Under the pieces are notes generated by a model. It searched no databases and had not been told where the DNA came from. It saw only the letters and a program-made list of their open reading frames with translations. From NCBI GenBank assembly GCA_029856125.1, contig JAHQWJ010000138.1, positions 1 through 64,000 of the forward strand: a DNA stretch of 64,000 bases, in the 5' to 3' direction. Shown in pieces: positions 10,137 to 18,342 of the stretch (positions are counted from its first letter, which is position 1; each line of letters begins with the position of its first letter). This stretch comes from Promethearchaeia archaeon (GTDB lineage Archaea; Asgardarchaeota; Lokiarchaeia; Sigyniarchaeales; SOKP01). The position numbers were made by a program, and so were the translations under genes.

Positions 10137-11384
10137 GTGGTTAAAAATATTCTTGATATTGGTTTTTTCAGCACTATGTATAGCCAAATCAACGGGACCG
10201 CTCACGCAGTAAGATTTCTATCCGAAGCAATCGCTAATCTTGGACACAATGTTCATGTCTTTGCACCAAGAATTCAAAATGGTTACAAAATACCGAAAAC
10301 ATTGCATTTTCACGAAATTGGAGGTGCTATTATTGGTCATAATACCGGTTTTGTTCTTAGTGCTCCTATACATAAAATATTTTTCTGTAAACATGACTAT
10401 TTAGATGTTGCCCATATTCATACACATGCTGTTGTAGGGACAATGGCTATAAATTGGGCTAAATATTTGGGTATTCCAATGATAGGGACACACAATAGCC
10501 CAATGCAATACTATACTGCTCAGTATGTTCCCGTAATTGGGAAGCTATTAACAAAAGGCGACCTGATCTGGAGATACGAACGCCACATTGTCGATAAATA
10601 TGATTTTGTTCATGTCGCTACAAAATCCAAAAAAGATTTACTCCGAGATTATAGGTTCAAGGAACCAATTGTTTGCATGACCAACGGAATTCGCGACTTA
10701 TATTACACAAATTTAAAAGAAAATGGAATTCGGGAGAAATATGGATTAGAAGGAAAGAAAGTTCTTTTATACGCATCACGATTATCTCCTGAAAAACATC
10801 CTATAGATGTTATTAAAACCTTTAAAAGAGTTCATGATGAAGTCCCTGATGCTCATCTTTTGTTAGTTGGGAGTGCTGGACCTTCAAAGGACCAAGTAAA
10901 AAGAATAATTAAAAAGAAACCGTATAGAGATTTCGTATCTTATGCTGGAAGAGTTCCTTTTCCCGATTTATTAAAATTATACAATACTGCGGATTTAACT
11001 TGTTTATGGTCGTGGATTGAAGCTGAAGGACTTGTTTTGCTAGAAGCAATGGCTCAAGGAACTCCAAGTGTTGGAGCTAATGCATGCGGAATCAGTAATA
11101 TAATTCGACACGGTAAAACTGGTTATTTAGCCAATAATCTTGATCAGTTTAAAGATTACATTGTTAAATTGTTAAAAAATGATGATCTTAGGGCTGAGTT
11201 TGGACAAAACGCAAAAAAAATTGCTCAAGATTATAGAGTAAATGAGATCGCAAAAACTTGGATTAAACTATACAAATTTACAATTGATCAACTTTATCCA
11301 TTACGATACAATAAAGCCGATAGGAAAGTTCGTGTTGAATTAGTAAAAGAGTTTATACACCAATTACCTCATGTTACTTTTTAA
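10137..11384 (+). CDS. Glycosyltransferase family 4 protein (GTG start)
   Basis: HIHTHAVVG, GTHNSPMQYY, LLYASRLSPEKHPIDVIKTF, EAEGLVLLEAMAQGTPSVG. Confidence 0.93.
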   Translation: MVKNILDIGFFSTMYSQINGTAHAVRFLSEAIANLGHNVHVFAPRIQNGYKIPKTLHFHEIGGAIIGHNTGFVLSAPIHKIFFCKHDYLDVAHIHTHAVVGTMAINWAKYLGIPMIGTHNSPMQYYTAQYVPVIGKLLTKGDLIWRYERHIVDKYDFVHVATKSKKDLLRDYRFKEPIVCMTNGIRDLYYTNLKENGIREKYGLEGKKVLLYASRLSPEKHPIDVIKTFKRVHDEVPDAHLLLVGSAGPSKDQVKRIIKKKPYRDFVSYAGRVPFPDLLKLYNTADLTCLWSWIEAEGLVLLEAMAQGTPSVGANACGISNIIRHGKTGYLANNLDQFKDYIVKLLKNDDLRAEFGQNAKKIAQDYRVNEIAKTWIKLYKFTIDQLYPLRYNKADRKVRVELVKEFIHQLPHVTF

Positions 11385-12082
11385 AAATTATTCTTTAATC
11401 TAACTTCATTTAATTTAGACTGACATTTTTTACAGAGTTTTACTGATTTACTATCGATCTCTTCTATAATTTTTGAATATCGCATAACACAATCTGTGGT
11501 AAGACAGTGTTCAAGGCCAATAATTAGATGTCCAATTTCGTGAATTACCTCTTTAATTATCCTATTTCTAACTTTTAAGTTATATCCTGAATCTTCATTT
11601 AAGTGAGGAATCAAATTATGAGTAGATACTATAGCACACCGGTGATTAATATTAGATTCTCCAAATAAGAAGAGTAAACTCTTATCGTTACTTGAATAGA
11701 GAGGTAGGTCTGTAAGTCCTAAACCTACATTAAAATTGTGTTCTTTCATCAAATTCTTAATAATATTGTATAATTTATTAGTTGGTTGGAGGATTACCTT
11801 TTTAGAAGCTTGCTTTAACAAATTATTTTCTTCTCTAATCTCACTTTCATACAAAACTGAGGGAATTTTGGTTTCGCCAATAAATAGAATTTCATAAAAA
11901 AATGAGTTGAATATTTTATTAATATAAAAATCTATTTTCGTTAAAATGGATGGTGAAATCTTTCCAATAAAAATAATTCCTAAATAGCTCGGATAAACGT
12001 GTTTTATAGAGGGATATTGATTTGTTGGTAATGATAATTCTTGATTAATAAAAAAATATTTAGTGTTTTGATATTTTGGCAT
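11381..12082 (-). CDS. amzA: Archaemetzincin family Zn-protease
   Basis: HEIGHLIIGLEHCLTTDCVMRYSKIIEEIDSKSVKLCKKC = archaemetzincin HExxHxxGxxHCxxxxCxM...CxxC signature. Confidence 0.92.
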   Translation of the reverse strand: MPKYQNTKYFFINQELSLPTNQYPSIKHVYPSYLGIIFIGKISPSILTKIDFYINKIFNSFFYEILFIGETKIPSVLYESEIREENNLLKQASKKVILQPTNKLYNIIKNLMKEHNFNVGLGLTDLPLYSSNDKSLLFLFGESNINHRCAIVSTHNLIPHLNEDSGYNLKVRNRIIKEVIHEIGHLIIGLEHCLTTDCVMRYSKIIEEIDSKSVKLCKKCQSKLNEVRLKNNF

Positions 12083-12201: not shown

Positions 12202-13269
12202 ATGTCTAATAACCCAAATTCAGTAAAAGTTCGAAAGGACGACCAAGATGAAGAGCAAAAATTTTCAGAAATTGAAGAAGGACAAAAAGGAATTATCAAA
12301 AAGGATATTATTCCACACTTTTTGCCAACGTACCGAATAAAATTCAATTATTATTCAATTCCTATTGTTGTCGTAATAATCTTAGCTTCAATACTAGCGT
12401 ATCTCACCTTCTTTGTTGCAGGAGTTCAAGTAGAAGAAAGTTACTTTCCTGAAGATGATTTGGGGCCTTTAGCTGTTCTATTAAACGGTGTAATTTTTAC
12501 AGTAATTGCGGTTGTATCAGGATTTTTAATTGTATTTTTTATCAAAAAGCTCGGGATGGGTGTCTTAAAGTACCTTTTTGGAATAAGTTTCGGTTTTGTT
12601 AGTTTTTTCATTACCTTAATGTTTTTAGATGTTATTATTTACTTAATTTTCATCCAATTTCCTGAGACTACATTTGTTTATAGACTGTACCTTCTTTTTA
12701 CGAATTTGTATATACCAATTGGAACAGCTATTTCTGTTTTCTTTCTTCTGTATAAATACTTCACTTCAAAATCTATAAAAACTAAAAATTTTATCGTCCT
12801 CTATATCAGTCTTTTGATAAGTGCTTCTATGAGTATTGTTTTACCTTTTTGGAGCACTCTCGCTATTTTGGTTGGGATATCTTTTTGGGATATTTTTGCT
12901 GTCCTCTATAAAAAAGGGCCAATTAAGGAAATGATAGAATTAATATCAGAAAATGACATTAAAGACGAGATGGAAGAAGCAGAACTGAAAGAGAAAATTG
13001 AAAGTGGTAATGCTATTTATGATACAACTAATTTAGAAATTGGAATTGGAGATTTAGCTTTTTATGGTTTACTTACTTCCAGTGTACTATTATTTACGAA
13101 TAATATTATAATTGCAGCTTTAACTACAGTAGCAATCGTAATTGGAACAGGAATTACTATCTCGAGATTGAAAAAGAATAGGATTTTACCAGGACTTCCG
13201 ATTTCCATATTTTTAGGAATTGGCACTTTTTTACTATCTCAATTAATAGTAACAATCTTTTTTATATGA
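12202..13269 (+). CDS. Presenilin-like intramembrane aspartyl protease (A22 family), multi-pass
   Basis: Hydrophobic segments; SFWDIFAVLYKKGPIKEMIELISEND (catalytic D230), LEIGIGDLAFYGLL (GxGD, D284), ILPGLPISIFLG (PAL-like motif). Confidence 0.88.
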   Translation: MSNNPNSVKVRKDDQDEEQKFSEIEEGQKGIIKKDIIPHFLPTYRIKFNYYSIPIVVVIILASILAYLTFFVAGVQVEESYFPEDDLGPLAVLLNGVIFTVIAVVSGFLIVFFIKKLGMGVLKYLFGISFGFVSFFITLMFLDVIIYLIFIQFPETTFVYRLYLLFTNLYIPIGTAISVFFLLYKYFTSKSIKTKNFIVLYISLLISASMSIVLPFWSTLAILVGISFWDIFAVLYKKGPIKEMIELISENDIKDEMEEAELKEKIESGNAIYDTTNLEIGIGDLAFYGLLTSSVLLFTNNIIIAALTTVAIVIGTGITISRLKKNRILPGLPISIFLGIGTFLLSQLIVTIFFI

Positions 13270-16151: not shown

Positions 16152-16544
16152 CTAATCTACAATGTTACTAAGTGATTTTGGTGGGTTAGCCGAAAAATAT
16201 ATCTGAATAGAAGGAATATCGAGCTTACTTAAAGCAGCAGCATTTTTACACGATGCTACTAAGATGCCATCCTGATTGATTTGTTGTATTAAGATTAATC
16301 CATTACTACAATCAACCATAATTCGTTTTAAATTGCTCTCCGTTATCTCACTAGTAAGTTCTTGACCTATATATTTCAGAGCCGTACACATTCCGGATAC
16401 AAGAGTTTGATCGGTAAATCCAGTAATAGACGATGCGAGAGCAATTGGTAATCCTTCATTATTCACAACAATGAGATCGTTTATTTCATCATTTTCACTA
16501 CACAAATATTCTAAATATTCTGCTAAATCAGAATTCATGAACAT
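16152..16544 (-). CDS. Roadblock/LC7 domain protein
   Basis: EINDLIVVNNEGLPIALASSITGFTDQTLVSGMCTALKYIGQEL...DGILVASC. Confidence 0.82.
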   Translation of the reverse strand: MFMNSDLAEYLEYLCSENDEINDLIVVNNEGLPIALASSITGFTDQTLVSGMCTALKYIGQELTSEITESNLKRIMVDCSNGLILIQQINQDGILVASCKNAAALSKLDIPSIQIYFSANPPKSLSNIVD

Positions 16545-17799: not shown

Positions 17800-18342
17800 T
17801 TAAATTAACTCTCTTTTTTTTAACATTGCGTCTACTAAAGTTTCAAAAACATTAGCATTATTATCTCCAGTTTTAGAGCTAGTTTCTATCAGAAAAGGTA
17901 TATTGTGTTCTTTTTTGAATTCTTCTGCTTCTTCTTTTTGAACCGTCCTTCTAGAGTCTGAAAGATCGACTTTTCCTCCAACCATAAGGAAAATTGTATC
18001 ATTCGTATTCTCTTTTACGATATCATACCATTCTTGAAGATTCTGAAAGCTAGTATATCTCGAAATGTCGTAACAAAGTAAACAACCTTGGGCTCCTCTT
18101 GAATAGTTCGGTAAGAAGAATCGGAATCTTTTTTCCCCAGCAAAATCCCATATTTGAAGTTTTACATCCATATCGTCTCTCTCTGTGCTCCAGGTCAATA
18201 GATCTGTCCCAATAGTCAAACGCATTGGCACGAAATGGCCAGTAATCAATCTCTGTATCATAGTACTCTTTCCAACACCACCATCACCTACTACAAGGAT
18301 TTTAAATAAAAACTGGCGTTTTTGATCTGATTGTTGCGACAT
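17800..18342 (-). CDS. Ras-superfamily small GTPase
   Basis: G1 GDGGVGKST, G3 WDFAGEKRF, G4-like GGKVDL, G5 ETSSKTG. Confidence 0.95.
   Translation of the reverse strand: MSQQSDQKRQFLFKILVVGDGGVGKSTMIQRLITGHFVPMRLTIGTDLLTWSTERDDMDVKLQIWDFAGEKRFRFFLPNYSRGAQGCLLCYDISRYTSFQNLQEWYDIVKENTNDTIFLMVGGKVDLSDSRRTVQKEEAEEFKKEHNIPFLIETSSKTGDNNANVFETLVDAMLKKRELI

Follow-up and report, generated by a model that had tools for sequence, protein, structure and literature searches.

A probable presenilin-type intramembrane protease of an Asgard archaeon is nearer to eukaryotic presenilin than to euryarchaeal PSH by profile, fold and motif

The stretch of Asgard archaeal DNA analysed here (64,000 nucleotides, hereafter the window) encodes at 12202..13269 on the + strand a 355-aa protein that is very probably a vertically inherited, single-subunit intramembrane protease of the presenilin type (GxGD, diaspartyl). 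Profile, fold and motif evidence place this protein nearer to eukaryotic presenilin than to the euryarchaeal PSH proteins. The protease reading is based on homology, motifs, predicted fold, conservation, synteny and the absence of partner genes, from which we infer catalysis, topology in vivo and substrates.

The gene is the only one of presenilin type in the 3.69 Mb source assembly. It starts with an ATG downstream of an AT-rich intergenic stretch; no promoter or terminator signals beyond chance were found near it, and the opposite strand carries stop codons throughout with no open frame. The translation contains SFWDIFAVLYKKGPIKEMIELISEND, LEIGIGDLAFYGLL and ILPGLPISIFLG together with D230 and D284, and the multi-pass protein of 355 residues with these two aspartates described in an earlier note corresponds exactly to the open reading frame. 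The first catalytic Asp, D230 (codon 12889..12891, +), stands in a WD context within TM helix 6 (residues 216-235 in the model) and is followed by KGPI (residues 238-241; 12913..12924, +), the presenilin-type signature in the motif alignment. The inter-aspartate loop (residues 231-283; 12892..13050, +), modelled with pLDDT <50 in parts, leads to GIGD (residues 281-284; 13042..13053, +), where D284, the second catalytic Asp, lies at the start of TM helix 7 and is followed by LAFY. The third motif, PGLP (residues 330-333; 13189..13200, +), read as PGLPIS, precedes TM helix 9 and is the counterpart of presenilin PALP, with PGL where presenilin has PAL. Across 42 aligned homologues D230, G281, G283, D284, Y288, L332 and P333 are invariant; taken as motifs, the catalytic aspartates, GxG, KGP and LP are invariant or nearly so.

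Pfam searches assigned the protein to PF01080 (Presenilin), for which it scored 71.9 bits where the cut-off is 34.3 (E=5.5e-20). No other Pfam family matched it up to E=1, no NCBIfam model matched it, and neither PF06550 (SPP/PSH) nor PF04258 (SPP/SPPL) had a match in the source genome. In MEROPS, eukaryotic presenilin is family A22A and SPP/SPPL is family A22B. A phmmer search of the PDB returned human PS2 as the best match (2e-8) and PS1 at 1e-4, and the similarity to presenilin proposed earlier is thus far beyond chance. A profile built from 13 diverse Asgard relatives matched PS1 at 1e-32 and PSH at 7e-11 in the PDB, with no match to SPPL2A at E<=10. Profile-profile comparison (hhalign) of the window protein's family gave 9.5e-22 with presenilin (PSEN), 3.3e-7 with PSH and 0.008 with SPP, and the Asgard-PSEN comparison 1e-21; between the other groups, the values were 1.4e-6 for PSEN-PSH and 4e-11 for SPP-PSH. 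Among the reference sequences, full-length verification against the PDB covers PS1, identical to chain 5a63_B across all 467 residues, and MCMJR1 alone; the set further comprised the PSEN2, fly, SEL-12 and Arabidopsis presenilins and three SPPs. The human presenilin stretches quoted in the earlier note are correct, being found in PS1 and matching 5a63_B.

The predicted structure agreed with this assignment. An AlphaFold2 model built from 42 aligned sequences (pLDDT 80.6, pTM 0.78), which superseded a single-sequence model computed without an alignment (pLDDT 50), contained nine TM helices with the N-terminus predicted inside. The hydrophilic N-terminal tail (residues 1-49; 12202..12348, +) is predicted to be mostly disordered, with pLDDT 32-34 for residues 1-30 and close to 50 for residues 31-40. 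In the model D230 and D284 lie in adjacent membrane helices, 216-235 and 282-299, the latter opened by D284. A short TM6a-like helix (residues 240-251) follows helix 6, and the loop holds a further short helix (256-267) and a weak strand pair (271-273 / 277-281) ahead of GIGD. In a Foldseek search the top matches were PS1 chains from gamma-secretase (7c9i, TM 0.66/0.76), above PSH (4hyg, 0.53/0.73) and then SPPL2a (9k93, 0.49/0.59). Positively charged residues were concentrated in the alternate loops 2-3, 4-5, 6-7 and 8-9, an arrangement common to eukaryotic presenilin and PSH; unlike these, the loop charges of SPP show the reverse tendency, suggesting an opposite topology, and presenilin and SPP have been described as opposite in topology (PMC2947513).

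Some homologues carry additional regions. Two proteins of one sister genus (L006:400-1770 and L010:412-1803) have an extra N-terminal region of ~80-100 residues on the presenilin, for which a Pfam search with L006 gave no match. In another Asgard family, L152 (G130:C80:30800-34000) has a ~130-residue insert between helices 1-2 that looks like a beta-rich ectodomain; its relatives L153-L155 are without it.

Alignment of the homologues showed that two motifs divide the superfamily. Past the first Asp, (K/R)GP(L/I) or a sequence near it occurs in eukaryotic presenilins and in the Asgard proteins, and GP(L/I) was found at that place in 66 of the 70 Asgard loci, some of them redundant; every PSH and each of the three full-length SPPs has Tx(x)MxxxA or the nearly identical form NVMVxVA there, and PSH has no GP motif. 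Four residues after the GxGD Asp stands Y in 63 Asgard loci and in eukaryotic presenilins and F in 7 Asgard loci, as opposed to P in SPP and in every one of 131 PSH loci; in PSEN2 a second GSGD follows downstream, and Y is the residue aligned at this position. On this alignment the superfamily splits into a presenilin/Asgard side with (K/R)GP(L/I) and GxGDxxF(Y/F) and a PSH/SPP side with Tx(x)MxxxA and GxGDxxxP. With eukaryotic presenilin the window protein thus has in common YD/WD and GxGD, (K/R)GP(L/I), GxGDxxFY and LP(A/G)LPIS; with SPP/SPPL it has in common the superfamily and its YD and GxGD. Three other, divergent Asgard loci (L047, L161 and L159, from families f8 and f18) kept GxGD with KGP and YD lost or changed, and their products are possibly altered or inactive.

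The earlier note had pointed to a presenilin-like catalytic region in this particular protein. KGPI and PGLPIS are real, but (K/R)GP(L/I) and GxGDxxF(Y/F), on which most of that idea rests, are common to nearly all Asgard homologues, so that the resemblance is no peculiarity of the window protein. The more specific match, AVLYKKGP, with two extra residues as in AVLCPKGP, is present but confined to the window protein's family (27 loci), and the nearest relatives of that family have SV(K/R)RGP at the same place. The simplest reading on the tree is that the AVLxxKGP spacing was probably gained in parallel, convergently with presenilin. We do not favour the alternative that it is a derived trait shared with eukaryotic presenilin, although a clade of the window family and PSEN was not rejected by the AU test (p=0.315).

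Phylogenetic analysis separated the window protein from PSH. PSH formed a clade of its own (support 99/99), and the AU test rejected a clade of the window family with PSH (p=0.0148); placement inside PSH, the outcome against which the earlier note had proposed to check its claim, is therefore contradicted and the window protein lies firmly outside this group. It is accordingly very improbable that the protein is an ordinary euryarchaeal-type PSH whose likeness to presenilin arose by chance. PSH does resemble it in being archaeal and stand-alone, in fold class (the TM scores above) and in loop length, but its profile and fold matches to the window protein are weaker than those of presenilin, each PSH examined departs from it in both diagnostic motifs, and the source genome lacks PF06550; together with the AU test, we consider that these observations refute this reading.

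The position of the window protein relative to eukaryotic presenilin is less firm. In an LG+C20 tree of 93 sequences, which is unrooted and for which the program gave a warning that the long branches of PSH and SPP join, presenilin and Asgard sequences were separated from PSH and SPP with support 96/94, and the same split was recovered after long-branch removal (94/92). When SPP was left out of the tree, the position of presenilin within the Asgard set received support of 64/4. AU tests rejected neither PSEN+SPP (p 0.397, 0.445) nor PSEN+PSH (p 0.185). The window protein thus falls firmly outside PSH and probably belongs with presenilin in a split that has PSH and eukaryotic SPP opposite, a placement favoured but short of proof; the trees do not establish descent of presenilin from Asgard archaea. 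The proposal that the protein is closer to the eukaryotic presenilin lineage than the euryarchaeal forms thus stands as regards profile, fold, motifs and separation from PSH, but not as a statement of descent.

Two histories were weighed for this split. Tentatively, and short of calling it probable, we suggest that the split may predate eukaryotes, with a presenilin type in Asgard archaea and an SPP type in euryarchaea; eukaryotic presenilin would then derive from the Asgard host and SPP from a PSH-type source, and nicastrin, APH-1 and PEN-2 would have been added later around a stand-alone protease. It is also a substantial possibility, if one just below even, that the presenilin-like motifs were ancestral to the whole superfamily and lost in PSH and SPP, in which case the likeness would be silent on descent from Asgard archaea to eukaryotes. 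The missing root, the failure to reject a PSEN+SPP sisterhood and the good match of Asgard proteins outside the window protein's family to PSH (hhalign, 2.4e-16) are in keeping with ancestral motifs. Against them stand the maximum-likelihood trees, which favour PSEN+Asgard, and the occurrence of Tx(x)MxxxA and GxGDxxxP in both SPP and PSH, since a PSEN+SPP grouping would need these motifs to have changed in parallel or reversed. The Asgard proteins speak against a convergent origin of presenilin and SPP, as suggested in PMC2947513, since their sequences connect presenilin with both PSH and SPP.

The distribution of the gene was consistent with vertical inheritance. PF01080 was found above the cut-off in 82 of 97 relatives and, across the Asgard phylum, at E<=0.001 in 132 of 180 genomes, 110 of them above the cut-off. 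PF06550 exceeded its cut-off in three of the 97 relatives and those proteins also match PF01080, which gave the higher score in the two compared directly (L033 and L036); PF04258 exceeded its cut-off in none of the 97. In the phylum of Methanoculleus, PF06550 was carried by 145 of 147 genomes and PF01080 was passed by 0 of 119; a Halobacteriota match to PF01080 (G222) contained 13 internal stops and was discarded as spurious. The archaeal sampling comprised Asgard archaea and the PSH-bearing phylum. No relatives of the protein were found on viral contigs.

Gene order was conserved around the window copy, in which MCH, a glycosyltransferase, an archaemetzincin, the presenilin-type gene, a 3-hydroxyacyl-CoA dehydrogenase, an FrhB-like gene and a small GTPase follow one another. 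Eight relatives from the family of the window protein's host retained this order apart from some gaps and insertions, and G064, from a different family, retained part of it; G066 did not show it. The relatives with conserved order represent several genera. Synteny and distribution across relatives indicate that the gene is native and old, and syntenic orthologues across the family that it was inherited and is not a contaminant. A recent transfer of the gene from a eukaryote, or contamination of the assembly with eukaryotic DNA, would fit the top PDB similarity to human presenilins, but the probability of this is negligible given the gene order shared by several genera, the matches in most relatives and the position of the protein deep among Asgard sequences on the tree; synteny and distribution refute it.

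Two features of the neighbourhood may be recorded here. The archaemetzincin gene (Peptidase_M54, 1.7e-19; 11381-12082, -) encodes a zinc protease of soluble type and is divergent from the presenilin-type gene; of nine relatives with synteny, six have the two genes side by side. As archaeal neighbours need not share a pathway, this adjacency is only a hint as to the function of the presenilin-type gene. Further downstream, a Roadblock/LC7 protein (16152-16544, -) and a Ras-family GTPase (17800-18342, -), typical eukaryote-like genes of Asgard archaea, are encoded close together and point to an Asgard host.

The inter-aspartate loop is much shorter than in human presenilin, as had been noted: the Asp-to-Asp length is 54 residues, compared with 128 in PS1 and 120-182 in five eukaryotic presenilins. 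Short loops are common in the superfamily (58 residues in PSH, 46 in SPP), so this feature is not distinctive; the long autoproteolytic loop, absent here, is a feature of the eukaryotic subgroup. Some Asgard lineages (L003-L005, L141, L143, L162 and L163) have longer loops, and the five of these that were measured span 75-88 residues, nearing the eukaryotic length. L003-L005 have PALP where others have PGLP, and L003 gave the top PF01080 score of the loci scanned (84 bits).

Unlike eukaryotic presenilin, the catalytic subunit of gamma-secretase, the window protein appears to have no partners. Searches, as proposed in the earlier note, found no homologue of nicastrin, APH-1 or PEN-2 in the source genome, and we therefore infer a single-subunit diaspartyl protease. 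Nicastrin resembles M28 peptidases. The sole relative above the nicastrin cut-off (37 bits; L052:1165-2160, in G077, a genome that also has a weak presenilin match) encodes a protein that resembles M28-type peptidases and carries a membrane helix at its C-terminus; it reads as intact, looks like an active M28 peptidase and is not a credible partner. Neither are the APH-1 and PEN-2 matches, which were stop-containing fragments under the cut-off.

We propose that the nine helices would form a presenilin fold with the N-terminus inside and the C-terminus outside, in which D230 (helix 6) and D284 (helix 7) would activate water and cut single-pass membrane proteins inside the bilayer. The loop strand ahead of GIGD and the PGLP segment may hold the unwound substrate. 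The protease would work without nicastrin, APH-1 and PEN-2, as MCMJR1 does, and, its loop being short, would probably not undergo autocleavage, again as MCMJR1. Its likely role would be to clear or release membrane stubs. Two points weigh against the protease reading: MCMJR1, the closest archaeal enzyme that has been tested biochemically, lies across the split, and the third motif is PGLP instead of PAL.

The channel function of presenilin is disputed. It is improbable that the main function of the window protein is a cation (calcium) leak pathway (TC 1.A.54) and not proteolysis: a pure channel would not need catalytic aspartates or the GxGD glycines, and their invariance in the 42 homologues counts against this reading. 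On the other side, a 2021 transporter survey places the Asgard homologues of presenilin in the presenilin ER Ca2+ leak channel family and, for archaeal homologues, cites activity both as protease and as channel (PMC7997004).

Asgard presenilin homologues were thus already known. That survey lists them as calcium leak channels, one each in Loki, MK-D1 and Heimdall and also in Odin, and this is repeated in PMC9433394; they very likely belong to the same protein family as the window protein, the survey's passages on them (PMC7997004) being without motif, fold or partner analysis. No analysis of the placement or motifs of Asgard presenilins was found in the open-access literature, and there we found the motif split undescribed.

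Collectively, the comparison bears on the choice of archaeal models for presenilin. The PSH MCMJR1 (PDB 4hyc), the archaeal model enzyme for presenilin, carries signal peptide peptidase motifs; Asgard archaea carry presenilin-motif proteins without the complex partners. If active, the Asgard proteins would offer a model of the presenilin catalytic core that is both simpler and closer, and with them the origin of gamma-secretase could be tested.
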